IMG/VR virus record: IMGVR_UViG_3300038491_000058
Coordinates: 1-48,147 of that record
DNA length: 48,147 nt
Direction: 5' to 3' (one strand)
Source: a virus
The position numbers and the translations under genes were made by a program. Below are positions 2,902-12,629 of the stretch, one piece after another. Every line of letters starts with the position of its first letter. Within the stretch, counting starts at the first letter, position 1. The notes under the pieces were generated by a model that was not told the DNA's origin, did not search any database, and saw nothing but the letters and a program-made list of their open reading frames with translations.

Positions 2902-5253
2902 TTACCCACCGATGATCTCCTCAAAGTTTGCATCCGTAGAGGTGGCGTAGAAATTCACCAATATAAATTCTGCTGTACGTACCGGTTTTAGATATATATC
3001 TACAACCAACTCATTCTGGTCAATAACAGTAGGTGTATTGTTACGTTCATCACAAACAATAATATAATCATATAGACCATCATCCGCTTTAACTCTCTCA
3101 AAGAATGGAGTTAATGTATTAACAACACGTGTTCTTGTGAATAGTGTATTATTCTCAAACAAGAAATACTGCATTGTGCGCTTTGTAATCTTTTCCAAGT
3201 AGATGAATGTTCTTCGAACATTGATTCTATCAAACGCACTAGGCTTTCTAAGAAGGGTCTTTTGTCCAAAGAATACATTACCTTGATCTGCGAGAGTTGT
3301 AATAGGGTTTAAATTTGATGTATATAAATCATCTCGCTGTCTCTGGTTTGGTGAGAGTGCAATATCACTAGCATCTGTTATAATACCTCTATTTAAACCA
3401 GCCGGCGCACCCCATGGGCCGATCTGAGCATCTGTACTAGCCATTTTAGCGGAAGCGAAGCCAGACGGTGGTACATACACATATAAACCGGAGTAGTTGT
3501 CATACACCTTCATATAGTTCGCGTAGACAGTTGCATATGAAGTGTTTGCTAGCTCAAACTGATGTCTTAATGCCCAATATGCATGAACATAAAAGTTTTT
3601 AGTTTTATCATCTTGAATTTTGTTATCCTTACCAGTTACTACGATCTGTCTAATCGGGTCTGCAATATATAGAATATCACCTCTACCACCATCTTTAACA
3701 GGTCCACAGAAAGTAGCAAACTTATTAAAGATTGTAGTATATGCTGTCCTAGCTTTTGTACCTGTAGCATTTAGATCATTTGATGTTCTTAGAGCTTCGA
3801 TAGATGTAGTTGTACGAGTATCATCATAACCATACCCGGAGAGCGAAGCACTTGCTGTTTGGTTATATGTCCATATGGAACCAATACCACCCTCAGCAAT
3901 AATATCAATATTAAATTTCCTATCATTCCTGATTCGATCAAGCGCGCGATCCAGTTTCTGTGGAATGTTGCCGGCTACCTTTGTCTCTAAGTTTGTTTCA
4001 CCATAAGCACCTAACGCATATATTGAATCAGCCGTCCCAATGGCATTAATCGCGTCGGTCATAAAGGATCCGTCGGCGTATCCAGCACCAACAATCGATG
4101 ATAAAATATTGCCATTTGTAAAATTATCAGATAAGGATTGAGTTAAAACTCTCAATTTCGTTCTAGGGGTACCATCAGAATTAAGCTTAACACCACTTAT
4201 CTGATCAGACAAAAACGGGTTAACAATAATATCAATATTTCTAGAGTCATTCTCAACATTTTCTAAGAAGTAGTTAATTGGTGCACCACCATTATCGGAA
4301 TTACGTTGTCTATAATAACCGATTGACCCATTATAACCTTCCTCTAATAGATAATCTAGTCTGTTTGCCTCTTTAGAGAAAACAGATTGTCTAAGCTTAA
4401 AGACTCCAATATTGAGAGCGTCATCAAATTCTCTAGTGGAAATGTCATAACCAGTGATTCGATCCTCCATCACTTGTGAGATGGAGTTTGTCGCCGGGTT
4501 ATCGCCAAACTCTGGTGTAGCTGATAGAGCAAATTCCAACCTACTGGTTGGCACTGTTGTATATGAATCAATACCAGATACACTAGCAGACTGTGTTACT
4601 GTCTCAACACTTAGGATAGACTCAAAAGCACGTGCTGGGTTAATATTAGTATTATCTGCAATACCTAAATAATATCCATTAAACTGACCATCAATAACAG
4701 TCTGAGATTTGTTAACTACAATTAAAGCTGCACCTGATAAGGCTGTAAGCGTTTTCCAACTGGTAGGGGCGGTGGCTGCTGAACCCCAACCGACAGGAAA
4801 TAGCTCACCACTTTTAAGTTGTAAGTATTCCTGCTCTGTAATATTATATTGTTTAGGTGCACCTAAGAAATAAGAGCCTGCGCTTACAGTAAAGTTTTGT
4901 GTAGCTACTTCTGCAGTTCTATCATAACCCTTGGCGGGGTATGCTAAAACACTGTAATAAGAACCAAACCCGTCACCACCGGCCTCACCATATGGTAATC
5001 GATTAACTAGCAAACTACCTGTAGAGTTTAGTGCTGCTCTAGCAGTATGATAAAAGTATCTCTCAGCCGGTGTTCTCGGTGATCCGTAAATTTGCTCAAA
5101 TTCAGTAATATTGCTCACCCCAACTACTTCATCTGTTGGACCTTGGTTCGCAAACCCGGTAATGTAGGTAGTTGTACCCTGTGAAACAGTTCTTAGGGAG
5201 AGATCACTTTCTCGGATCTCAACCCCTGGCGATTGTATTGTGCGCTTGGACAT
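2902..5253 (-). CDS. 18: Contractile tail sheath protein
   Basis: 783 aa; T4 gp18 is 659 aa and longer forms are common in marine relatives. The N-terminus SPGVEIRESD is the classic sheath start. It is followed by TTYITGFANQGP and FEQIYGSPRT (domain I). A variable, Ser/Thr/Gly-rich surface domain covers roughly residues 100-480. The C-terminal core has FIYLEKITKRTMQYFLFENN, TRVVNTLTPFFE and the final strand VDIYLKPVRTAEFILVNFYAT. It forms the contractile outer tail around the tube. It has its own late promoter and a strong terminator. Confidence 0.93.
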   Translation of the reverse strand: MSKRTIQSPGVEIRESDLSLRTVSQGTTTYITGFANQGPTDEVVGVSNITEFEQIYGSPRTPAERYFYHTARAALNSTGSLLVNRLPYGEAGGDGFGSYYSVLAYPAKGYDRTAEVATQNFTVSAGSYFLGAPKQYNITEQEYLQLKSGELFPVGWGSAATAPTSWKTLTALSGAALIVVNKSQTVIDGQFNGYYLGIADNTNINPARAFESILSVETVTQSASVSGIDSYTTVPTSRLEFALSATPEFGDNPATNSISQVMEDRITGYDISTREFDDALNIGVFKLRQSVFSKEANRLDYLLEEGYNGSIGYYRQRNSDNGGAPINYFLENVENDSRNIDIIVNPFLSDQISGVKLNSDGTPRTKLRVLTQSLSDNFTNGNILSSIVGAGYADGSFMTDAINAIGTADSIYALGAYGETNLETKVAGNIPQKLDRALDRIRNDRKFNIDIIAEGGIGSIWTYNQTASASLSGYGYDDTRTTTSIEALRTSNDLNATGTKARTAYTTIFNKFATFCGPVKDGGRGDILYIADPIRQIVVTGKDNKIQDDKTKNFYVHAYWALRHQFELANTSYATVYANYMKVYDNYSGLYVYVPPSGFASAKMASTDAQIGPWGAPAGLNRGIITDASDIALSPNQRQRDDLYTSNLNPITTLADQGNVFFGQKTLLRKPSAFDRINVRRTFIYLEKITKRTMQYFLFENNTLFTRTRVVNTLTPFFERVKADDGLYDYIIVCDERNNTPTVIDQNELVVDIYLKPVRTAEFILVNFYATSTDANFEEIIGG

Positions 5254-5266
5254 AAAATTATTTATG
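5254..5266 (-). promoter_or_regulatory. T4-type late promoter of sheath gene
   Basis: ATAAATA on the minus strand (5259-5265), 5 nt before the ATG at 5253. Confidence 0.6.
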
Positions 5267-5304
5267 GTATTTTACACAATAATTGCTAGTTTCTAAAACC
5301 TTAT

Positions 5305-5880
5305 TTATAAATTAAGCAATTTAGTATGTAACTGAGAATAAACAAAAGTCATAGAAGTGTTTATTTCGGCTGCGTCTCTGTAATTATACGCAATATTACC
5401 CAAAACTGTAGGAAATGCTTTAGTGTATGTAAACTGTATTCGTTTGTTTTCATACTCATCAACACCATATATTGTCATATCAGTCTGATAGTTACTATAT
5501 TCACTACTAACAAGATTATCAGCATCATACAGACCCGTTTTATCATCATGCATTAAATCTAACCATTTATATATTACCCAATAGTTATTAAACTCGTTAT
5601 CAACTGTAAAGTCGATAGTAACCGGTGGGTAAGCATCTCTAGCATGTGACGATTGATAGAGGGTATTCCCCGCGTAAGGTATTTTCATAGCAGGTACAAC
5701 TAGCTCTGGAACAACAGTACCATAAATTGAAAATTGGAATGAATCTTCAGAAACATTAAATGATGCCCGAGTATCTCTTTTCTGAACTTTACGTAATGCT
5801 AGTGGTAGCTGGAAAACCATTATAAATTTGTCTATCCGGCCCTTATTGAGTAGGGATTGTTTATTTACATTTGTAGGCAT
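5305..5880 (-). CDS. Second tail-tube-like protein
   Basis: A 191 aa protein with the tube fold pattern: FIMVFQLPLALRKV near the N-terminus, a YGTVVPELVVPAMKIPYAGN strand pair, FTVDNEFNNYWVIYKWLD, and a C-terminal IQFTYTKAFPTVLGNI then MTFVYSQLHTK strand. It is a gp19 paralogue between terminase and sheath, perhaps a tube initiator or tube-cap protein. Together with the genes at 1445 and 2207 it makes three tube-fold proteins within 4.5 kb. It starts at an ATG abutting a late promoter that overlaps the terminase stop codon. Confidence 0.55.
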   Translation of the reverse strand: MPTNVNKQSLLNKGRIDKFIMVFQLPLALRKVQKRDTRASFNVSEDSFQFSIYGTVVPELVVPAMKIPYAGNTLYQSSHARDAYPPVTIDFTVDNEFNNYWVIYKWLDLMHDDKTGLYDADNLVSSEYSNYQTDMTIYGVDEYENKRIQFTYTKAFPTVLGNIAYNYRDAAEINTSMTFVYSQLHTKLLNL

Positions 5881-5893
5881 AATAATATTTATG
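5881..5893 (-). promoter_or_regulatory. T4-type late promoter overlapping terminase stop
   Basis: ATAAATA (minus, 5886-5892) with 5 nt to ATG. It includes the terminase stop codon (5889-5891). Confidence 0.6.
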
Positions 5894-7382
5894 CTAAAGG
5901 CTCATATCCAAACATTGATAGCTCATTCATATCATCTTGAGCTTGATCAGCACCCATACCGAAAACTATAGGCGGTAAGCAAGAATTATTATCACCCACT
6001 ATTTCATTATCTAAATATAAAGATGTTGCATCTTCAAAATATTGAATACCGAAATCCATTTGTTCAATAGTAGCAGGTTTACCTCGCTCATCTAGTTCCA
6101 CAATTTCAAAAAATCTTTCTGTTATTTCTTTCTCTAGAATGAACAGAGCGTATAGCAATGACATCACTCTATCATCATGATGACTTCTCCTAGCCTTCCA
6201 TGTACCGTTTGGCCATCGAACAAAATTCTTAAGCTCAGTTAAAGTTTCTATATCATTAATCTGAACTGCTCGTACATCATTAATAAAATATCGCATGTTT
6301 AATACACCCTGATACTTTGTATTAGTATGAGCAATCATACCTAGCATTATATTTTTCCTATGAGCCGCTTTATTACCATATGATACAATTTTCTCATATC
6401 CCATATCATTCGCTAACCTATCTACAACTTGTGCACCACAATTATTACGCTCAATTAATGCCAACGGCATGCCGTAGTTACGGAGAACAGAATATACCTT
6501 AGTTGCAAATTCAAGAGGAGGTATTTTATTGCTAGTATAACAAGCAACCTGCCGTATATCTTTAATATCTGTTATATCTAATATTTGTATACATGATGAG
6601 TCGGCACCAACACCCTCCGCTGTATCAACACCAGCAACATAAACACGTGATGGGTCTGCCTCTTCCCATATCTTATAATGACCATCATCTAAAATAATTT
6701 TTGGATCTCGAGTCTTAGAAACCATCTCCTCAAATAAATCATCATCAATTGATGATTCACCTGTTGATAAAAATTCGCAATTAAATTCTTGTCTCCACGC
6801 ATCATTTGATCCAATTGCCTGTCTAGTAGATTTAACCCAATCATCATCTCTATCCGGCACTTCATGCCACATAATTTTATCATGCGCCCAGCCATTTTCA
6901 CCATCCACTGCACCCTTATATAATGTATGAAATAGATTATCATTACCATTTGCGGTACTACATACAAATACCTTGGATTTCTTCGACGATGTAATTACTG
7001 GAAAAACTGACTTCCAAAACTCCTCAATTAGGTGAGTGTTATGGGAGAGAATACCGTTAGTATAATACTTATGCGTCCTCTCAACCTCAACAAAATCATA
7101 AACCTTCTCTTCACGACCAATATCAATAATATCAACAACCTCACATAGACCATCTACAGTTTTAATTCTATGACCTATTGAATCACATGCAAGAATAACA
7201 TCCCCAGCTGCATCAATAAACCCATGGTTTTTAGATACGTGTATATAATCACCGTTATCTAAAACAACTTGAAATAGCTTCTTCTTTGAATATTCAGCAA
7301 TACCCTTAAAGTCTCTCCAACCCTCATCTGTTTCTATTTCCCATTCATCATTAGGAATGAATCTTTCTATATCTTCTCGCAT
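5889..7382 (-). CDS. 17: Large terminase C-terminal fragment with split-intein C-half at its N-terminus
   Basis: 497 aa. Residues 1-115 are an intein C-half: WEIETDEGWRDFKGI, VVLDNGDYIHVSKNHGF, and the C-terminal splice block VERTHKYYTNGILSHN ending His-Asn. Thr116 is the first C-extein residue. The extein continues THLIEEFWKSVFPVI and VCSTANG (coupling motif III). The nuclease follows: YVAGVDTAEGVGADSS, LIERNNCG and a late HHDDRVMSLLYALF with catalytic acidic residues, as in gp17 RNase-H-fold nucleases. Its ATG lies inside the 3' end of the endonuclease gene (16 nt overlap), so translation is likely coupled. It should trans-splice to the middle fragment (8551-9018). Confidence 0.9.
   Translation of the reverse strand: MREDIERFIPNDEWEIETDEGWRDFKGIAEYSKKKLFQVVLDNGDYIHVSKNHGFIDAAGDVILACDSIGHRIKTVDGLCEVVDIIDIGREEKVYDFVEVERTHKYYTNGILSHNTHLIEEFWKSVFPVITSSKKSKVFVCSTANGNDNLFHTLYKGAVDGENGWAHDKIMWHEVPDRDDDWVKSTRQAIGSNDAWRQEFNCEFLSTGESSIDDDLFEEMVSKTRDPKIILDDGHYKIWEEADPSRVYVAGVDTAEGVGADSSCIQILDITDIKDIRQVACYTSNKIPPLEFATKVYSVLRNYGMPLALIERNNCGAQVVDRLANDMGYEKIVSYGNKAAHRKNIMLGMIAHTNTKYQGVLNMRYFINDVRAVQINDIETLTELKNFVRWPNGTWKARRSHHDDRVMSLLYALFILEKEITERFFEIVELDERGKPATIEQMDFGIQYFEDATSLYLDNEIVGDNNSCLPPIVFGMGADQAQDDMNELSMFGYEPLA
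7038..7382 (-). other. Atypical split intein 3, C-half (115 residues)
   Basis: The C-intein ends HN followed by Thr. The C-half is much longer than the usual 35-50 residues and carries the block B-like NHGF. Its partner N-half is the 30-residue tail of the gene at 8551-9018. The short-N/long-C layout matches the AceL-TerL class of metagenomic terminase inteins. Confidence 0.85.
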
Positions 7383-8542
7383 AAGTCTTCTTTTGTTATT
7401 ATCTTAAAAGCATAATCATTCTCTCTACACCACAATCGAGCTGCTTCAAACTTCGACTGATTCAAAGGTTGATTTACAAACTCACGTGGCTTTACCTCGT
7501 ATAATACTTTATTTACCTGATCACAAAAATCGACAATGTAAACTCGTTCCTTATTATCATATGTGTAAGGAATTCGAATTAATTCATAATCTAAATGAGG
7601 ATTATTTTCATGAAACATTACCTCCCAACTACTACGATAATTATTAAGTCCAGTTAACTCTGAATATAACTTTTTATTGGAATATCTGTTGTTTGTATTT
7701 GGTGTAAATTCTCCGGTTAAAATCTTATTCCTCATAACATCGCTCATCTTTTTATATATTCCCCTAGCTCTATTTTTTTTTGTGAGTTTATCTCTCTTAT
7801 CTTTTGTCCACGTCTTCTTATTTGACGTAGATATCTTGCTTTTTGTTGTTTCGCTATGATGGTATCCCCTACGAGATTTCACTCTCCGCTCTTTAACATC
7901 ACCAGATTGCAAATAAGACAAATCACGATCCTTCCCAATAGTACTCAAAACATCACTAATACATCGCTTCTTACTACACGTTTTATTCAAGAAGAATGTA
8001 TTCCTATTTTTAAAGCTGCAATAATCACCACATATACAGTATATTGAATCATTACACATACTTGCAAATTTATATTTAATATCCTCAATACCTTCTGTAT
8101 GTTTAGATATATTGTGAATTAAGTCCTTATCATTTAGCAATGATGTATAGGCTGCTCGTTGAACATAGTCAGATAATCGTAGCATCGTCTCATCCGGAGG
8201 CATTGATATACCATCTTCAAAGATACCATCTTTTAATCTATCAATAAAGGATGCAATTGACTTTCCACTAAACGACACACCACCTTTAACATAGCCACGT
8301 TTATAGCTAATAAACTTCAAGTCTGGTAGGTAGTCGACATCATTAACTATATGATATAACTTTTGACCGAGTGGTAGCTCATCTAACGTAGGTGTATCTC
8401 TATAATACTCATTTATAAAATTATAAACCTTCTCACCATCTTCGTATTTATCATACCATGCTCTATAATATGAGTTTTTATTAAGCTTCTTATCCTCAAA
8501 GAAATCAACTATACATGACTGCATATAACGTTTATCGATCAT
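7367..8542 (-). CDS. Free-standing homing endonuclease (NUMOD3 plus Vsr/PD-(D/E)XK-like nuclease)
   Basis: 391 aa. A helical N-terminal region is followed by a Cys cluster (CICGDYCSF ... CSKKRC), which may bind zinc. Next comes a basic NUMOD3-like DNA-binding helix (HHSETTKSKISTSNKKTW, about residue 229). The C-terminal domain has YRSSWEVMFHENN, YELIRIPYTY, RVYIVDF and LYEVKPRE. This is the E...D...ExK layout of Vsr-like nucleases seen in homing endonucleases of fractured intein genes. It fills the break in split intein 3 and would spread it to intein-free terminase alleles. It has its own late promoter and overlaps the downstream C-half gene. Confidence 0.8.
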   Translation of the reverse strand: MIDKRYMQSCIVDFFEDKKLNKNSYYRAWYDKYEDGEKVYNFINEYYRDTPTLDELPLGQKLYHIVNDVDYLPDLKFISYKRGYVKGGVSFSGKSIASFIDRLKDGIFEDGISMPPDETMLRLSDYVQRAAYTSLLNDKDLIHNISKHTEGIEDIKYKFASMCNDSIYCICGDYCSFKNRNTFFLNKTCSKKRCISDVLSTIGKDRDLSYLQSGDVKERRVKSRRGYHHSETTKSKISTSNKKTWTKDKRDKLTKKNRARGIYKKMSDVMRNKILTGEFTPNTNNRYSNKKLYSELTGLNNYRSSWEVMFHENNPHLDYELIRIPYTYDNKERVYIVDFCDQVNKVLYEVKPREFVNQPLNQSKFEAARLWCRENDYAFKIITKEDLCEKI

Positions 8543-8557
8543 ATATTTATTTATGTC
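8543..8557 (-). promoter_or_regulatory. T4-type late promoter of endonuclease gene
   Basis: ATAAATAAATAT on the minus strand next to the ATG at 8542. It overlaps the stop codon of the middle terminase fragment (8551-8553). Confidence 0.55.
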
Positions 8558-9018
8558 TTTTGGATAATATTCTCAATACTTCTTGTGACTATCTCCCCTG
8601 TATTTTTATTACGTAGCCTTACTGTAGTATCTTTAGACACACACTCAATGAAAGCCATCTCATCAATCACTAAGCATTGATGACTTAATACACCGTTAGC
8701 GTAATATGTATGAGTTTTCTCAACTTCTAGCAGCTCGTATACTTTACTATCATCAGTGTAAGTGGCAATATCGGTAATTTCAATACCACCATATAATTTA
8801 TTTTTAATTAAAAGATCTTTTGCATAAACGATCTCCTCGTTTTCTGCTAACAGTTTATGTAGAGGTGTACATATTAACTCTTTATCACTAGAGAGTGTGA
8901 GTTTAATTTTTGAAGGGTTACTACCGATTATAAGCCCTTTAAAGTCTCTGAAACCGTCGTTTGTTAGTACTTGATATTTGCTATTTTTAAAGCATTTATA
9001 TTTTGTTAAGTCTGCCAT
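8551..9018 (-). CDS. 17: Large terminase middle fragment: intein C-half, 11-residue Walker B extein, intein N-half
   Basis: 155 aa in three parts. Residues 1-114 are a C-half (YQVLTNDGFRDFKGL ... VEKTHTYYANGVLSHQ). Residues 115-125, CLVIDEMAFIE, are the only terminase sequence and form the Walker B strand with the catalytic Glu. Residues 126-155 are an N-half starting with nucleophile Cys (CVSKDTTVRLRNKNTGE). This polypeptide must splice at both ends to restore ARGQSVN-CLVIDEMAFIE-THLIEEFW. The first intein ends in Gln rather than the usual Asn. The gene starts 4 nt after the upstream endonuclease stop and lacks a late promoter, suggesting coupled translation. Confidence 0.9.
   Translation of the reverse strand: MADLTKYKCFKNSKYQVLTNDGFRDFKGLIIGSNPSKIKLTLSSDKELICTPLHKLLAENEEIVYAKDLLIKNKLYGGIEITDIATYTDDSKVYELLEVEKTHTYYANGVLSHQCLVIDEMAFIECVSKDTTVRLRNKNTGEIVTRSIENIIQKT
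8554..8643 (-). other. Atypical split intein 3, N-half (30 residues)
   Basis: It starts with Cys (CVSKDTTVRL) after Glu of the Walker B extein and stops after IQKT. It carries block A only. Confidence 0.8.
8677..9018 (-). other. Atypical split intein 2, C-half (114 residues, C-terminal Gln)
   Basis: It ends LSHQ followed by Cys as +1 residue. Asn-to-Gln is a known but uncommon variant of the cyclising residue. Confidence 0.8.
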
Positions 9019-9022
9019 CTTA

Positions 9023-9847
9023 CTATTTTATTTTTGTTTCGAGATTTGTACCTCTTTTTGGGAAGCATTTAGGACAAGCGGGTCTATGACCAATAGATAA
9101 ATCATGATAAAATCTAGCGTCACACTCTTGACATACCCATTTATATTTTTTATACAGTGCAACTCCGTTATACGTCTCATCCAACTTAACGTTATAATCT
9201 GTCTCAATTTTAGAGATTAATTTAACTTGCTTTGTAAAAATGGCGCGCTGCGTAATAGCCTCAGATTGCATTGGGTTATCTACACCATATTTTTCATTCA
9301 ATGTCTTTCGAGCTTTATTTTTATAATCTTCAGTCTGAAAAAAGTGATCAACACCGTATTTTAAGTTATTATGTTTAACTCGTGTTGTCTTAAGCTTAGA
9401 TATATCGCTACACGTTTTATTACTCCATGTATTAATCACTTTACTTTTAAAATCCTCGCTCTGCTGGTATATCTCGCTCCCGTATTTCTCCTGGTTGGTT
9501 GCCTTACTATGTGATTGACCGGCTTTTGATTGCAACCAAGACGTTGCACCATATTTCTCTATATTAGTTAATTTAATCTCCTCAACATTATATTTATTAC
9601 TACATTTACGACAACAAAACTTACCATACCCGGATTTAAAATCCCGGTATTTGAGAATACTATTACACTGCATGCATGTTGGTGTCTCTGATATATTATG
9701 ACACACATTATACGCATTACGAGCAAATGTTAACTCAGAGTCATATAGTTCATGTTGCTTTATAAATGTCACTTCATCACCGTGGAGATATTTCGGAAAA
9801 ACCTTAGGTATATTTGTAAGCGTTAATAGTACACTATTCACATCCAT
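9023..9847 (-). CDS. Homing-endonuclease-like protein lacking a visible nuclease domain
   Basis: 274 aa from the ATG at 9847, chosen because ATAAATA lies 5 nt upstream of it. It has a CMQC ... CCRKC zinc-finger-like cluster, then a series of E-KYG-x5-QS-x-D/A repeats (EKYGATSWLQS, EKYGSEIYQQS, KYGVDHFFQT, EKYGVDNPMQS). A second finger follows (CQEC ... CPKC). Phage homing endonucleases of this layout normally continue into a Vsr-like nuclease after an S/N-x-x-E-x-x-I motif. This one stops at TNLETKIK, exactly there. It fills the break of split intein 2. It is probably a decayed endonuclease, or a DNA-binding remnant. Confidence 0.7.
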   Translation of the reverse strand: MDVNSVLLTLTNIPKVFPKYLHGDEVTFIKQHELYDSELTFARNAYNVCHNISETPTCMQCNSILKYRDFKSGYGKFCCRKCSNKYNVEEIKLTNIEKYGATSWLQSKAGQSHSKATNQEKYGSEIYQQSEDFKSKVINTWSNKTCSDISKLKTTRVKHNNLKYGVDHFFQTEDYKNKARKTLNEKYGVDNPMQSEAITQRAIFTKQVKLISKIETDYNVKLDETYNGVALYKKYKWVCQECDARFYHDLSIGHRPACPKCFPKRGTNLETKIK

Positions 9848-9862
9848 AATAGTATTTATTAC
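9848..9862 (-). promoter_or_regulatory. T4-type late promoter
   Basis: ATAAATA (minus, 9853-9859) with 5 nt to ATG. It sets the start of the gene at 9847. Confidence 0.55.
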
Positions 9863-9899
9863 CCAATTGGGTAAAGCCACCGGTAAAGGTATTATATTT

Positions 9900-11594
9900 T
9901 TAATTGTCCAGGAATATAGGAAGTAACTCCCCACCTTCAAATTCAGCTGCTAACTCCTCCATGGAGCAATCAAATGTTAACCCAGTTTCTTTATCTTTCA
10001 ACGTTATTATTGTCTCCCCGTCGACACAGTTGACGGATTGGCCACGGGCTGCTGACCCGGTCGTAGTAGTAATACCTATACGAGAGCCATTCTCAAGGGT
10101 CATGGACGTTTTGGCATATTCTTTAACAGGCGGCTTAAGCCAGTTAGGTAGTTCCTCATATGCCATCCGAACTCTTTGAAATATTTCAATCGCAGTAGCT
10201 TCTTTGTTAGCTACTAGCAATATTCGCTGATCTGCATTAAAGCATGCTTGCCAGAGGATATAAATTGTCATCATTGTCGAGTTGTGAGTAGGTATATACT
10301 GATTACCTGCGAGAAATTGCGAATCTTCACTATCAACAGTTATACACCTAACAGGAACCGATTCAACAAGCTCTATATTCTTTATAAAGTGATACTGCCC
10401 CCTTATTTTAAAGTTATGCTTCTTCTCTTGATGCTTTATTCTTTTCTGCTTAAACGATAATAGAGCTACATCTTCAATTGGTTTAAATGTTATAGATGAG
10501 CATGGCTTACATTCCACACCATTAAGTGTCGGTATATAGTCTTTTAATGTAACCTTATACCCTAGACTTTCAGTTAACTGCTTTACCTGTCTAGTGAGAT
10601 TCTTATTTGTGTTATAAAACTGACATGTACCTGCTTTATTTATATAGCCATCACTATCAACTAAACCTTGCAGTAACTGTAATCGTTGCTCTCTACTCGC
10701 TAACATATAATCAACGGGTATATGTTTATTATTGAGTAAGTTATTATGTCTTAATAACGAACTAAGACTCTTTGTTTGTATATCAGACTCAACAGTAGGG
10801 CGAATAAAATAATTTTTCGAATTGTAGTTTTTAATAATAAGCTTATCAAATTGCTCTATCTTATCAAATATTTTAATCTGTTCGTCTATATCTCTATGAC
10901 CAACTGTTATTGTACCGGTAGCAGATGTACCATCACCTAACCACAAGCCTAGGACATAGGGATGTATAGGTAATTCTTTCTCTATACCCCCAACACCATT
11001 AATACATGTTGGTATTCTGTGATTAGGCTCAGGTCTCTTCTTACCACTATATAGTGTGTCTAAAATATCTCTTGTTGTCTTAACTGACCCACTACACTCC
11101 TTTCTACGATCACCCCTCGTCTGAGTAAACCATAAATGATCACCATCTGCAACTATCTCCTCCCCGTTATCAAATGTTACTTTATAACAGTCACGATCAT
11201 ATAATACATCATGCGCTTTTAAAACACTACACTGATCACCCTTATTATCGTATATAACATCACCAGATTTAATAGACCCCATATCCATCCACCCGGTTGG
11301 TGTTGGTATTGGTGTATCTAATGCTAGTGCCTTACCTATCTGTCTACTTGCTAGCTGTATAAAGAATCGATTATCTCTCATCTTACGGATGGCTCGCTTT
11401 TGAGCAGGATATAGCTTAATAGTCTCACGCCCACGATCAAGATTAATAATATAGAAATAATTTTCAGCAAAATAGAGTATATTCTGACTCGCTTTCTTAA
11501 GCGCGTTCACTTGCGATGTAGTATATTCACCTTTCCAGTTAACATTTGGTAGGTTTTTGTTACCCATGTAGAACATATTACTTTGCTGAGCCAT
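9900..11594 (-). CDS. 17: Large terminase N-terminal fragment with complete intein in Walker A and split-intein N-half at its C-terminus
   Basis: 564 aa. Residues 1-88 are N-extein with the adenine-binding Q motif region (IKLYPAQKRAIRKM) and half of Walker A (LASRQIGK). Residues 89-438 are a full intein starting Ala (ALALDTPIPTPTGW) with a LAGLIDADG endonuclease (VLGLWLGDG and LLQGLVDSDGYI), ending IPTHN. Residues 439-522 resume the ATPase (STMMTIYILWQACF, LLVANKEATA, SAARGQSVN). Residues 523-564 are a 42-residue intein N-half beginning Cys (CVDGETIITLKDKETG). Spliced Walker A reads SRQIGKSTMMT, matching gp17-type terminases. The strong late promoter TATAAATA lies upstream. Confidence 0.92.
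   Translation of the reverse strand: MAQQSNMFYMGNKNLPNVNWKGEYTTSQVNALKKASQNILYFAENYFYIINLDRGRETIKLYPAQKRAIRKMRDNRFFIQLASRQIGKALALDTPIPTPTGWMDMGSIKSGDVIYDNKGDQCSVLKAHDVLYDRDCYKVTFDNGEEIVADGDHLWFTQTRGDRRKECSGSVKTTRDILDTLYSGKKRPEPNHRIPTCINGVGGIEKELPIHPYVLGLWLGDGTSATGTITVGHRDIDEQIKIFDKIEQFDKLIIKNYNSKNYFIRPTVESDIQTKSLSSLLRHNNLLNNKHIPVDYMLASREQRLQLLQGLVDSDGYINKAGTCQFYNTNKNLTRQVKQLTESLGYKVTLKDYIPTLNGVECKPCSSITFKPIEDVALLSFKQKRIKHQEKKHNFKIRGQYHFIKNIELVESVPVRCITVDSEDSQFLAGNQYIPTHNSTMMTIYILWQACFNADQRILLVANKEATAIEIFQRVRMAYEELPNWLKPPVKEYAKTSMTLENGSRIGITTTTGSAARGQSVNCVDGETIITLKDKETGLTFDCSMEELAAEFEGGELLPIFLDN
9903..10028 (-). other. Atypical split intein 2, N-half (42 residues)
   Basis: It begins Cys-Val-Asp-Gly after the extein sequence RGQSVN and ends in FLDN and a stop. 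The partner C-half starts at 9018. Confidence 0.82.
10281..11330 (-). other. Contiguous LAGLIDADG intein (350 residues), Ala-1 type
   Basis: It begins GCA-CTA-GCA (Ala-Leu-Ala) at 11330 and ends CAC-AAC (His-Asn) at 10281, before Ser. Two LAGLIDADG-like helices flank the endonuclease core. Position 1 is Ala rather than Cys or Ser, as in KlbA-like or class 3 inteins. The insertion is inside the P-loop, a typical target. Confidence 0.88.
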
Positions 11595-11609
11595 TGAAAA
11601 TATTTATAC
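11595..11609 (-). promoter_or_regulatory. T4 late promoter of terminase
   Basis: Perfect TATAAATA (minus, 11601-11608), 6 nt before the ATG at 11594. It is divergent from the promoter at 11616. Confidence 0.7.
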
Positions 11610-11615
11610 CTAGAC

Positions 11616-11627
11616 ATAAATAAATAT
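11616..11627 (+). promoter_or_regulatory. T4-type late promoter
   Basis: ATAAATAAATAT immediately before the ATG at 11628. It forms a compact divergent late promoter pair with 11601-11608. Confidence 0.6.
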
Positions 11628-12629
11628 ATGTCTACAAAAGATTTAATGAATTTAGGTCAGGTATACGGTACAATATTTAACGACTTTAAAAAAACTATTG
11701 TCAAAGAAAGTACCGTGCCTAAAGGTGAAATTGGAAACGCGGATCTCGAGCAGAAAGGTGGTCCTGAAGAGACTGCCGGTTATAGCAGCGATAGAGTTGA
11801 TATAGAAGATGAAGATCAAAAAAGTAATGATTATAACATTAAAGGTCTTTCATACGGTAAGGGTAATAATCCAGGCAATACACAAAGCCCTCAACCAACT
11901 ACAGGTGATGCTGCTCTATTAGGTATTGTAGGTGACGGAGACGAGGATGAGGAAGATACTAAAAATGATGAATATCCATATGAATGTGACTGTGGTGAAA
12001 CGTGGAAGACAAAGGACGCTGCATCGCAATGTAGTACTTGCCAGGGGCACAGTAATATACACGATGAGGATGAAGAAATTTTACATGAAACAGAGAAAAT
12101 TGCGAGGAATGGACTAAATAATTTTATGAAGCGAAAATCAGTCTTTGATAAACTTTACGATAAGGTCATGGTTAGTGAAAACTTTGGTGAATTAGAACCC
12201 AGTGATCTTGACTCCCTCGGGTTAGATGACGCTGTACCAGATAGTGAACTAGGTGATGAAGGTGAAGATGGTGATGAAATCACCGTTACCCTTGATCGTT
12301 CAACAGCCCAAGCTTTATGTGATGTATTGCAAGCAGCTATCGGGCATAGTGAAGATGGTGACGAAGATTTTGGTGCCGGTGATAGTGATGATGGGTTTGA
12401 TGGGTTCGATGGTGAAGAGGATGAAGAGGGCGCACCAACCGCACTAAACACATCTTATAATGATGGAAAGTCCAATAAAGTTGGATCACTTAAAGCAAAA
12501 GGTGGGGCGACATTTAAAGGTACTAACATAAAGGTAGATACAGGCTCCACCCACTCCGGCAGCTATAATGATGGTAAAAATAACAAGGTTGGTAACCTCA
12601 AAACCAATCAATCAGCTTTCGAGCAGTAA
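11628..12629 (+). CDS. Acidic late protein with zinc-ribbon-like motif, unknown function
   Basis: 333 aa and strongly acidic (long Asp/Glu/Gly runs at about 103-112 and 205-275). It contains a four-Cys motif CDCGETWKTKDAASQCSTC (about 125-143). A helix follows, FMKRKSVFDKLYDKVMVSENFG, then an ordered segment EITVTLDRSTAQALCDVLQAAIG. The C-terminus has two copies of SYNDGKxNKVGxLK. Acidic late proteins next to terminase and neck genes are often capsid-core or scaffold-associated, but no family is recognised. A terminator follows. Confidence 0.7.
   Translation: MSTKDLMNLGQVYGTIFNDFKKTIVKESTVPKGEIGNADLEQKGGPEETAGYSSDRVDIEDEDQKSNDYNIKGLSYGKGNNPGNTQSPQPTTGDAALLGIVGDGDEDEEDTKNDEYPYECDCGETWKTKDAASQCSTCQGHSNIHDEDEEILHETEKIARNGLNNFMKRKSVFDKLYDKVMVSENFGELEPSDLDSLGLDDAVPDSELGDEGEDGDEITVTLDRSTAQALCDVLQAAIGHSEDGDEDFGAGDSDDGFDGFDGEEDEEGAPTALNTSYNDGKSNKVGSLKAKGGATFKGTNIKVDTGSTHSGSYNDGKNNKVGNLKTNQSAFEQ

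Follow-up and report, generated by a model that had tools for sequence, protein, structure and literature searches.

Fractured genes, with split intein halves and a free-standing endonuclease gene between them, were reportedly described by Dassa et al. in 2009. A split intein can also share its host protein with contiguous ones, as in Trichodesmium DnaE, which has one split intein and contiguous inteins. The atypically split inteins AceL-TerL, GOS-TerL, VidaL and Cat pair a short N-half with a long C-half: half lengths are 37/115 residues in GOS-TerL and 25/104 in AceL (review PMC11766414), and the reported atypical N-halves have 15–37 residues (PMC13014065). Here we analyze the large terminase gene (terL) of the window, that is, the 48,147-base IMG/VR virus record IMGVR_UViG_3300038491_000058 (positions 1–48,147), in which the large terminase (TerL, T4 gp17-type) is encoded by three minus-strand open reading frames (ORFs), the N, middle and C fragments. 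We consider it highly probable that this TerL is made as three polypeptides, which two split inteins and one contiguous (cis) intein would join, and that the arrangement arose by separate homing. As in the fractured genes, an enzyme gene is broken at a conserved motif, the intein halves lie on two parts and an endonuclease-type ORF is found in both gaps; unlike them, the window gene has two fractures (three in two relatives, L084 and L057), with an extein of 11 residues between the two. Trichodesmium DnaE, in comparison, has a single split and two pieces. More than one intein also occurs in the TerL of crAss-like phages, made of three in-frame fragments and two inteins (PMC7886860), but these are in frame within a recoded ORF, whereas the window has separate ORFs and split inteins.

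All features of the locus described here lie on the minus strand. The N fragment (9900–11594; 564 residues, TAA stop, terminase PHROG matches) opens with extein E1a (residues 1–88; 11331–11594), which ends SRQIGK in the Walker A motif, followed by a contiguous intein of 350 residues at site a (10281–11330; ALALDTP...IPTHN, from Ala1 to Asn, with Ser at +1), by extein E1b (84 residues, STMMT...ARGQSVN; 10029–10280) and by the 42-residue N-half of split intein b, which starts with Cys1 (9903–10028) and has homologues at the identical extein position in other contigs. The middle fragment (8551–9018; 155 residues, TAA stop) is made of the 114-residue C-half of intein b (8677–9018), ending HQ with Cys at +1, of the 11-residue extein E2, CLVIDEMAFIE, which is the Walker B strand (8644–8676), and of the 30-residue N-half of split intein c, again with Cys1 (8554–8643) and with homologues in L084 and L057. 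The C fragment (5889–7382; 497 residues, TAA stop, Terminase_6C match at E = 7.1e-10) begins with the 115-residue C-half of intein c (7038–7382), ending HN with Thr at +1, and continues from THLIEEFW into the 382 residues of extein E3 (5892–7037), which holds the remaining ATPase and the nuclease domain and in which site d (EFN^CEFLS) is uninterrupted. Every element of the original prediction, namely a three-piece TerL with two split inteins and a contiguous Ala-1 LAGLIDADG intein at this place, was thus found. The N and C fragments share one reading frame but are 2.5 kb apart, with stops in between; the middle fragment lies in another. An alternative genetic code or read-through joining the pieces was rejected, since the frame changes from each piece to the next and an endonuclease ORF intervenes. 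The sister IMG/VR record 3300038760_000071 (80,259 bp) carries the same stretch, with 15,377 of 15,382 bases identical, which makes an assembly artefact unlikely.

The joined exteins form a protein of 565 residues, of which residues 7–479 match residues 85–549 of T4 gp17 (PDB 3ezk) with an E-value of 3.6e-59. None of the splice points, three in number, shows a gap (the two residues that gp17 lacks begin one residue beyond junction c), so that the continuous gp17-like ATPase anticipated from the letters alone is borne out. The alignment pairs the Walker A GK-S with GK-T of gp17, and CLVIDEMAFI, placed without gaps at site b, with MIYIDECAFI; both domains of a T4-type large terminase, the Walker A/B ATPase and the RNase H-like nuclease, are aligned. 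It follows from this alignment that, until splicing, Walker A would be broken and Walker B would reside on a piece of its own. The gp17 match, the profile and CatC matches of the intein halves described below and the recurrence of the pieces in L084 and L057 exclude chance.

We recognized split inteins by an N-half and a C-half on separate ORFs at one extein position, jointly with blocks A, B, F and G. Both b and c have this layout, with separate stops and adjacent pieces in different frames, and the motifs can be read in the sequence: Cys1, T/S..H, then HTYYANG..HQ-C in b and HKYYTNG..HN-T in c. The middle and C fragments match NCBIfam intein_Cterm above its cut-off; their matches to Pfam Intein_splicing (E = 1.8e-6 and 2.3e-4, respectively) fall short of the threshold of that model. 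C-half b matches the engineered Cat consensus intein CatC (6dsl; E = 7e-5), and it has a weak match to VidaL (E = 0.07). The middle fragment was also modeled with AlphaFold from a 19-row alignment (mean predicted local distance difference test score, pLDDT, 83.4), and the best PDB match of this model in Foldseek is the same Cat intein with its atypical split site, 6dsl (E = 2.4e-6, TMt 0.76), with VidaL fourth; sequence thus links C-half b to Cat, and the predicted fold links it to both Cat and VidaL. The predicted C-halves are in this way supported by intein_Cterm, C-half b by CatC and by its modeled fold as well. With 42/114 residues in b and 30/115 in c, the two inteins have the short N-half and the long C-half (about 104–115 residues, including block B) of the AceL-TerL, GOS-TerL, VidaL and Cat type, although the N-half of b is longer than the N-halves reported in PMC13014065. 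The window inteins differ from one another, their C-halves being 30% identical and their N-halves sharing 9 of 30 residues in an ungapped comparison. The insertion sites also set them apart from AceL and Cat: they insert at Walker B (sites b and c), and site d (EFN^CEFL), which we take to be the insertion site of AceL and GOS-TerL, is empty in the window and split in L084, L057 and L055. The earlier assignment to the AceL-TerL class therefore holds for the style of splitting and fails for the site.

The third intein, inserted between GK and S of Walker A, carries a LAGLIDADG endonuclease domain (Pfam LAGLIDADG_3 and Hom_end, both above cut-off), and both of its ends align to the DnaB inteins 6rix and 6bs8, the latter titled class 3. 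Class 3 inteins are defined by a W-C-T triplet (PMC7891396), and the Trp (HLW), Cys (VPVRC) and Thr (PTHN) are kept in the site-a intein relative to the class 3 DnaB inteins; together with Ala1, which is no nucleophile, these residues make it class 3-like in sequence. As read from its junctions, the window protein would combine a cis intein (Ala1, Ser+1), split intein b (Cys1, Gln end, Cys+1) and split intein c (Cys1, Asn end, Thr+1). In L138, L181, L182, L223 and L245, site a holds split inteins with Cys1, hence two intein types at one site.

A scan with the C fragment yielded 92 relatives, of which 80 loci were kept. In 70 of these the covered part of terL is uninterrupted, and in the other 10, some of them near-copies and one being the near-identical 80-kb sister record of the window, it is interrupted. 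L084 was among the loci contributed by a second scan, for which the middle fragment was the query. In L084, terL lies in four ORFs, with splits at b, c and d; L057 has the same three splits together with a partial Walker A intein at the contig edge; L055 has splits b and d plus a contiguous intein; and L155 has splits b and c, with an E3 50% identical to that of the window. The split-intein pieces of the window recur in L084 and L057 in the same layout at 63–95% identity: N-half b is 95% identical in L057 and 78% in L084, at the same extein position, N-half c 63% and 80%, respectively, and C-half c 86% in L084. The N-half at site d in L055, L057 and L084 can be read as Ser1 with Cys+1, a combination reported for GOS-TerL (PMC11766414). 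The arrangement had been presented as not known to be described: we found no natural protein or gene joined by two split inteins among the matches listed from the open-access literature searched, but the window is not unique, as these three-split relatives attest.

Three further scans, for which the queries were alignments of the C-halves at sites b, c and d, brought the set to at least 255 loci; as most queries were C-halves, this set is enriched for inteins and the fractions given here are not prevalences in nature. Hidden Markov models for TerL and for the C-halves were run on the ORFs of the match strand, and 254 of 256 sequences (255 loci plus the window) had matches, falling into 154 clusters; the two without matches, L001 and L002, were by our reading taken from the window itself. 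Before cleaning, 101 clusters had at least one ORF-initial C-half, 17 of them two and 2 of them three; after cleaning, a TerL split was present in 101 of the 154, and two or more in 16, or in 15 once L171, which has many in-frame stops, was dropped. The assigned split C-halves were 45 at site b, 42 at d, 11 at a, 11 at c, 6 at b2 and 4 at b1, counts in which, as in the tree below, the two halves of L171 remain; one junction of L200 fell outside the site assignment, and the piece upstream of the first C-half of L211 was not seen. The combination of b and c occurs in four clusters (the window, L155, L084 and L057), the last two adding d. The commonest junctions were HQ^C at b, HN^S/T at a, HN^T at c and HN/SN^C at d. 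The site-d split of L245, read by eye, consists of one TAA and then an ATG about 13 codons on in the same frame. L253 and L254, counted as single splits, consist of same-frame neighbours with one stop between them; in both the N fragment carries a fused endonuclease, and recoding is possible. Beside fragmented terL genes, extra ORFs match the TerL ATPase region in L199 (3436–4272), L143 (2095–2793) and L150 (2594–3178). In L206 (13064–14323) and L202 (5217–6461), a gene without TerL match starts with an intein C-half followed by a P-loop-like SGKS; judging from these sequences, a second gene may also be split in these phages.

Both gaps of the window hold a free-standing endonuclease ORF between the intein halves. 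The gap-b ORF (9023–9940; first in-frame ATG at 9847, 9023–9847 encoding 274 residues) matches homing endonuclease PHROGs (phrog_3339) and DUF7487, and it is truncated: 305 residues, or 274 from the ATG, against 569 in L055, about 285 C-terminal residues having been lost. The gap-c ORF (7367–8542; 391 residues) is TnsA-like (Tn7_TnsA-like_N, E = 2.8e-10; phrog_15427 endonuclease) and has homologues in the corresponding gap of L084, L057, L091 and L155. Among the 108 junctions of the family with both sides visible, 27 have gaps below 200 bp, too short for an endonuclease gene, or 25 if L253 and L254 are omitted for their fused endonucleases. Short gaps and the truncated gap-b endonuclease both imply that a split can outlive its mobility gene. 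Gaps with endonucleases might also be self-splicing introns with intron-borne endonucleases, the pieces being joined at the RNA level. RNA splicing has been shown for terL of ICP1 and in gut jumbo phages (PMC10448857; PMC12363816), and the terL of the Jug phages is, like that of the window, in several pieces, two or three, although there the interruptions are group I introns (PMC12363816). In the window, a search for group I or II introns gave no Rfam match at E ≤ 1 over 5000–12600 on either strand, and hence no catalytic RNA core in a gap; moreover, each gap opens with a coding N-half and closes with a coding C-half at a precise extein position, and the 25 short junctions have no fused endonuclease. 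We therefore regard RNA-level joining as extremely unlikely.

The ratios of nonsynonymous to synonymous substitution (dN/dS) indicate that the intein halves are under purifying selection: relative to L084, the values are 0.09 and 0.17 for N-half and C-half b, 0.16 and 0.15 for N-half and C-half c, 0.18 for endonuclease c and 0.16 for E3, and over L084 and L057 together they range from 0.03 to 0.16 for the unsaturated exteins and from 0.09 to 0.21 for the intein halves, all from single pairs by a simple method, with many extein comparisons saturated at synonymous sites, as were many pairs involving further loci. These ranges bear on the possibility that the gene is decayed, the inteins being dead and the phage either relying on another terminase or being a defective relic. 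The truncated gap-b endonuclease and the partial nature of the records would fit such a decay; against it stand the low dN/dS ratios, the fact that all three ORFs are open and the layout shared with L084 and L057. The original prediction had itself named an intact terminase gene elsewhere as the observation that would speak against it, but family searches (PF03237, phrog_2) found no second terminase in the 48-kb record or in the 80-kb sister record. Phrog_2 matched nine of nine records, in the window and its sister solely at the fragmented gene; PF03237 matched five of nine, the window record not among them, probably because its N-terminal domain is too fragmented. Taken together, we find decay very unlikely. 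It is still a little less likely that the fragments work unspliced, the three polypeptides forming an active motor by non-covalent assembly. There is a precedent in a phage ribonucleotide reductase, which is split by an endonuclease gene and still functions as two peptides (cited in PMC10448857), but here the middle extein is a single Walker B strand of 11 residues between 144 intein residues, and the purifying selection on the intein halves and the junction residues that recur at each site also argue against unspliced function.

To compare inteins across sites, we used a similarity set of 125 C-halves, 119 from the IMG/VR clusters, five from four cultured phages and CatC. With copies above 95% identity excluded, the nearest neighbour lies at the same site for 116 of the 125 (shuffled labels: mean 34, maximum 54), and the six site labels can be placed on the tree with 10 changes (the minimum is 5, and shuffled labels need 64 on average). 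Across the four genomes compared, identity is 28–34% between C-halves from different sites, while the best same-site matches of the halves of the window, L084 and L057 reach 69–93%; inteins b and c of the window fall in distinct groups. CatC is nearest to the site-d halves, both by similarity and in the tree, a grouping that is consistent with site d being, as we presume, the known AceL/Cat site. Divergence at synonymous sites bears on movement. Relative to L084, the proportion of synonymous differences (pS) is 0.32–0.50 for C-half b, N-half c, endonuclease c and C-half c, and 0.70–0.82 for the exteins; a cassette that passed from phage to phage after the host genes had diverged would show this pattern. 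Relative to L057, N-half b has a pS of 0.19 and C-half b one of 0.56; given this difference, the two halves of intein b may have been exchanged separately.

Several observations weigh against three spliced pieces brought together by homing, besides the limits of the dN/dS comparisons given above. Relative to L057, the c cassette (pS 0.54–0.71) is about as diverged as the exteins (0.58–0.70), so that the homing signal comes from L084. In the free tree, sites b, d, c and b2 do not each form one clade, but this C-half tree has few columns and many open forks, and for c a better tree was found with c held together. The last residue of C-half b is Gln and not Asn; at site b, however, no ending is commoner than HQ (23 of 45), which looks tolerated there. 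C-half c is assigned to the atypically split type by its length and homology. In the model of the middle fragment, which also contains C-half b, the strands of N-half c reach a fair pLDDT of 83–88, and these two non-cognate halves may conceivably associate within that fragment. The 48-kb and 80-kb records are probably genome fragments, and an intact terL could lie elsewhere. Finally, the splicing reactions, the orthogonality of the inteins and the homing are what we infer from the sequences.

Similar arrangements exist in cultured phages, of which eight regions were fetched and the ORFs read in five (CP21, IBB_35, JK32, SRB7757 and Va1). In the Shigella phage JK32 (Krischvirus; L262, 1745–4856), whose record names E. 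coli XL1 Blue as host, the translations of two terminase coding sequences have a Walker B intein half at each edge, a split that is not recognized as such in the annotation. Escherichia phage HY03 (Tequatrovirus; L263, 1034–3886) is annotated as terminase large subunit, endonuclease and terminase large subunit and has a 58.7% match to the JK32 C-half; by annotation and this match, its TerL would also be split at Walker B. The JK32 C-half matches 82 phage records at E ≤ 1e-5, not all of which are split, and in SRB7757 the intein is contiguous. In the terL of Campylobacter phage CP21, the Walker A region carries an intein and Walker B is interrupted twice: it is split at its start and, 8 extein residues (CNIIVVDE) later, holds a further intein, which is contiguous. 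The elements follow one another likewise in Campylobacter phage IBB_35 (L256, 1538–6784), where the second Walker B intein contains an endonuclease ORF and its C-half is out of frame in the deposited sequence. Both phages thus resemble the window in having a Walker A-region intein and two inteins at Walker B, the first a split at its start and the other, in these phages, 8 residues further on, and IBB_35 also in its three coding pieces; they differ from it in the second Walker B intein, contiguous in the one (CP21) and with its C-half out of frame in the other (IBB_35). The authors of the IBB_35 genome reported an intein and an intron in terL (PMC3322345); to judge from its sequence, what was published as an intron resembles the halves of a split intein accompanied by an endonuclease ORF.

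In the mechanism that we propose, the class 3-type intein would excise itself from the N fragment and restore Walker A (GK-S). The 42-residue N-half b would bind the 114-residue C-half b, fold with it into one HINT domain and join ...GQSVN to CLVIDEMAFIE, and the 30-residue N-half c would bind the 115-residue C-half c, joining CLVIDEMAFIE to THLIEEFW, so that three splicing reactions would yield one gp17-like motor of 565 residues. Separate homing events into the most conserved ATPase motifs would have created the arrangement, driven by the free-standing endonuclease between the halves, with the fracture staying after the endonuclease decays. The two split inteins are predicted to be orthogonal because wrong pairings would come at a cost. 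Were N-half b to splice with C-half c, the terminase would lack Walker B; were C-half b to splice with N-half c of one middle fragment, the 11-residue extein would be cyclized. An order of C-half then N-half is used in the laboratory to make cyclic peptides, and a cyclic Walker B peptide is a possible by-product if the two inteins cross-react. A further question is whether fragmentation is kept because it is useful, splicing gating the assembly of the motor according to timing, dose or host-cell state. Splits do persist without room for an endonuclease (the 25 short junctions; sites b and d of L057), and an ATAAATA motif lies just upstream of the N fragment and of both endonucleases, not of the middle or C fragments. 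Yet close relatives manage without, terL being interrupted in only 10 of the 80 C-fragment-scan loci, and precise removal of a split cassette is difficult, so its persistence needs no benefit; we judge such a use quite unlikely. It also seems unlikely to us, if somewhat less so, that an essential motor is repeatedly put together in nature out of three or four pieces, each translated separately, by sets of mutually orthogonal split inteins, with this obligatory multi-step trans-splicing serving as an assembly checkpoint for the packaging motor and not merely being a tolerated trace of homing.

Beyond terL, the ORFs at 2902–5253 and 5305–5880 presumably encode the tail sheath and tube, which they resemble going by T4 gene order. 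A motif, NATAAATA, which we take to be T4-late-promoter-like, ends 5–6 bases before the ATG of window ORFs: it precedes those starting at 2743, 5253, 5880, 8542, 9847 and 11594 on the minus strand and at 11628 and 13085 on the plus strand, and is absent before the middle and C fragments of TerL. Among the 49 ATG-initiated ORFs of at least 100 codons, 12 have the motif within 30 bases upstream, compared with about 0.4 expected from its density, and Shine-Dalgarno-like sequences are scarce (4 of 49).

As far as the open-access literature searched goes, the natural split inteins on record each break their gene once. The TerL of the window would need two trans-splicing events and one cis-splicing event, and those of L084 and L057 three trans-splicing events, an arrangement for which homing, repeatedly and into conserved ATPase motifs, is in our view the simplest explanation. 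Natural orthogonality becomes directly testable in such phages, as two or three pairs would be present in one cell and a cross-reaction would delete Walker B. New inteins with short N-halves at five sites (a, b, b1, b2 and c), beside the AceL/Cat-type site d, offer varied junction residues for protein ligation. Such splits could also explain why terL, the usual marker of tailed phages, is annotated in pieces or goes unrecognized, including in cultured Escherichia coli phages.

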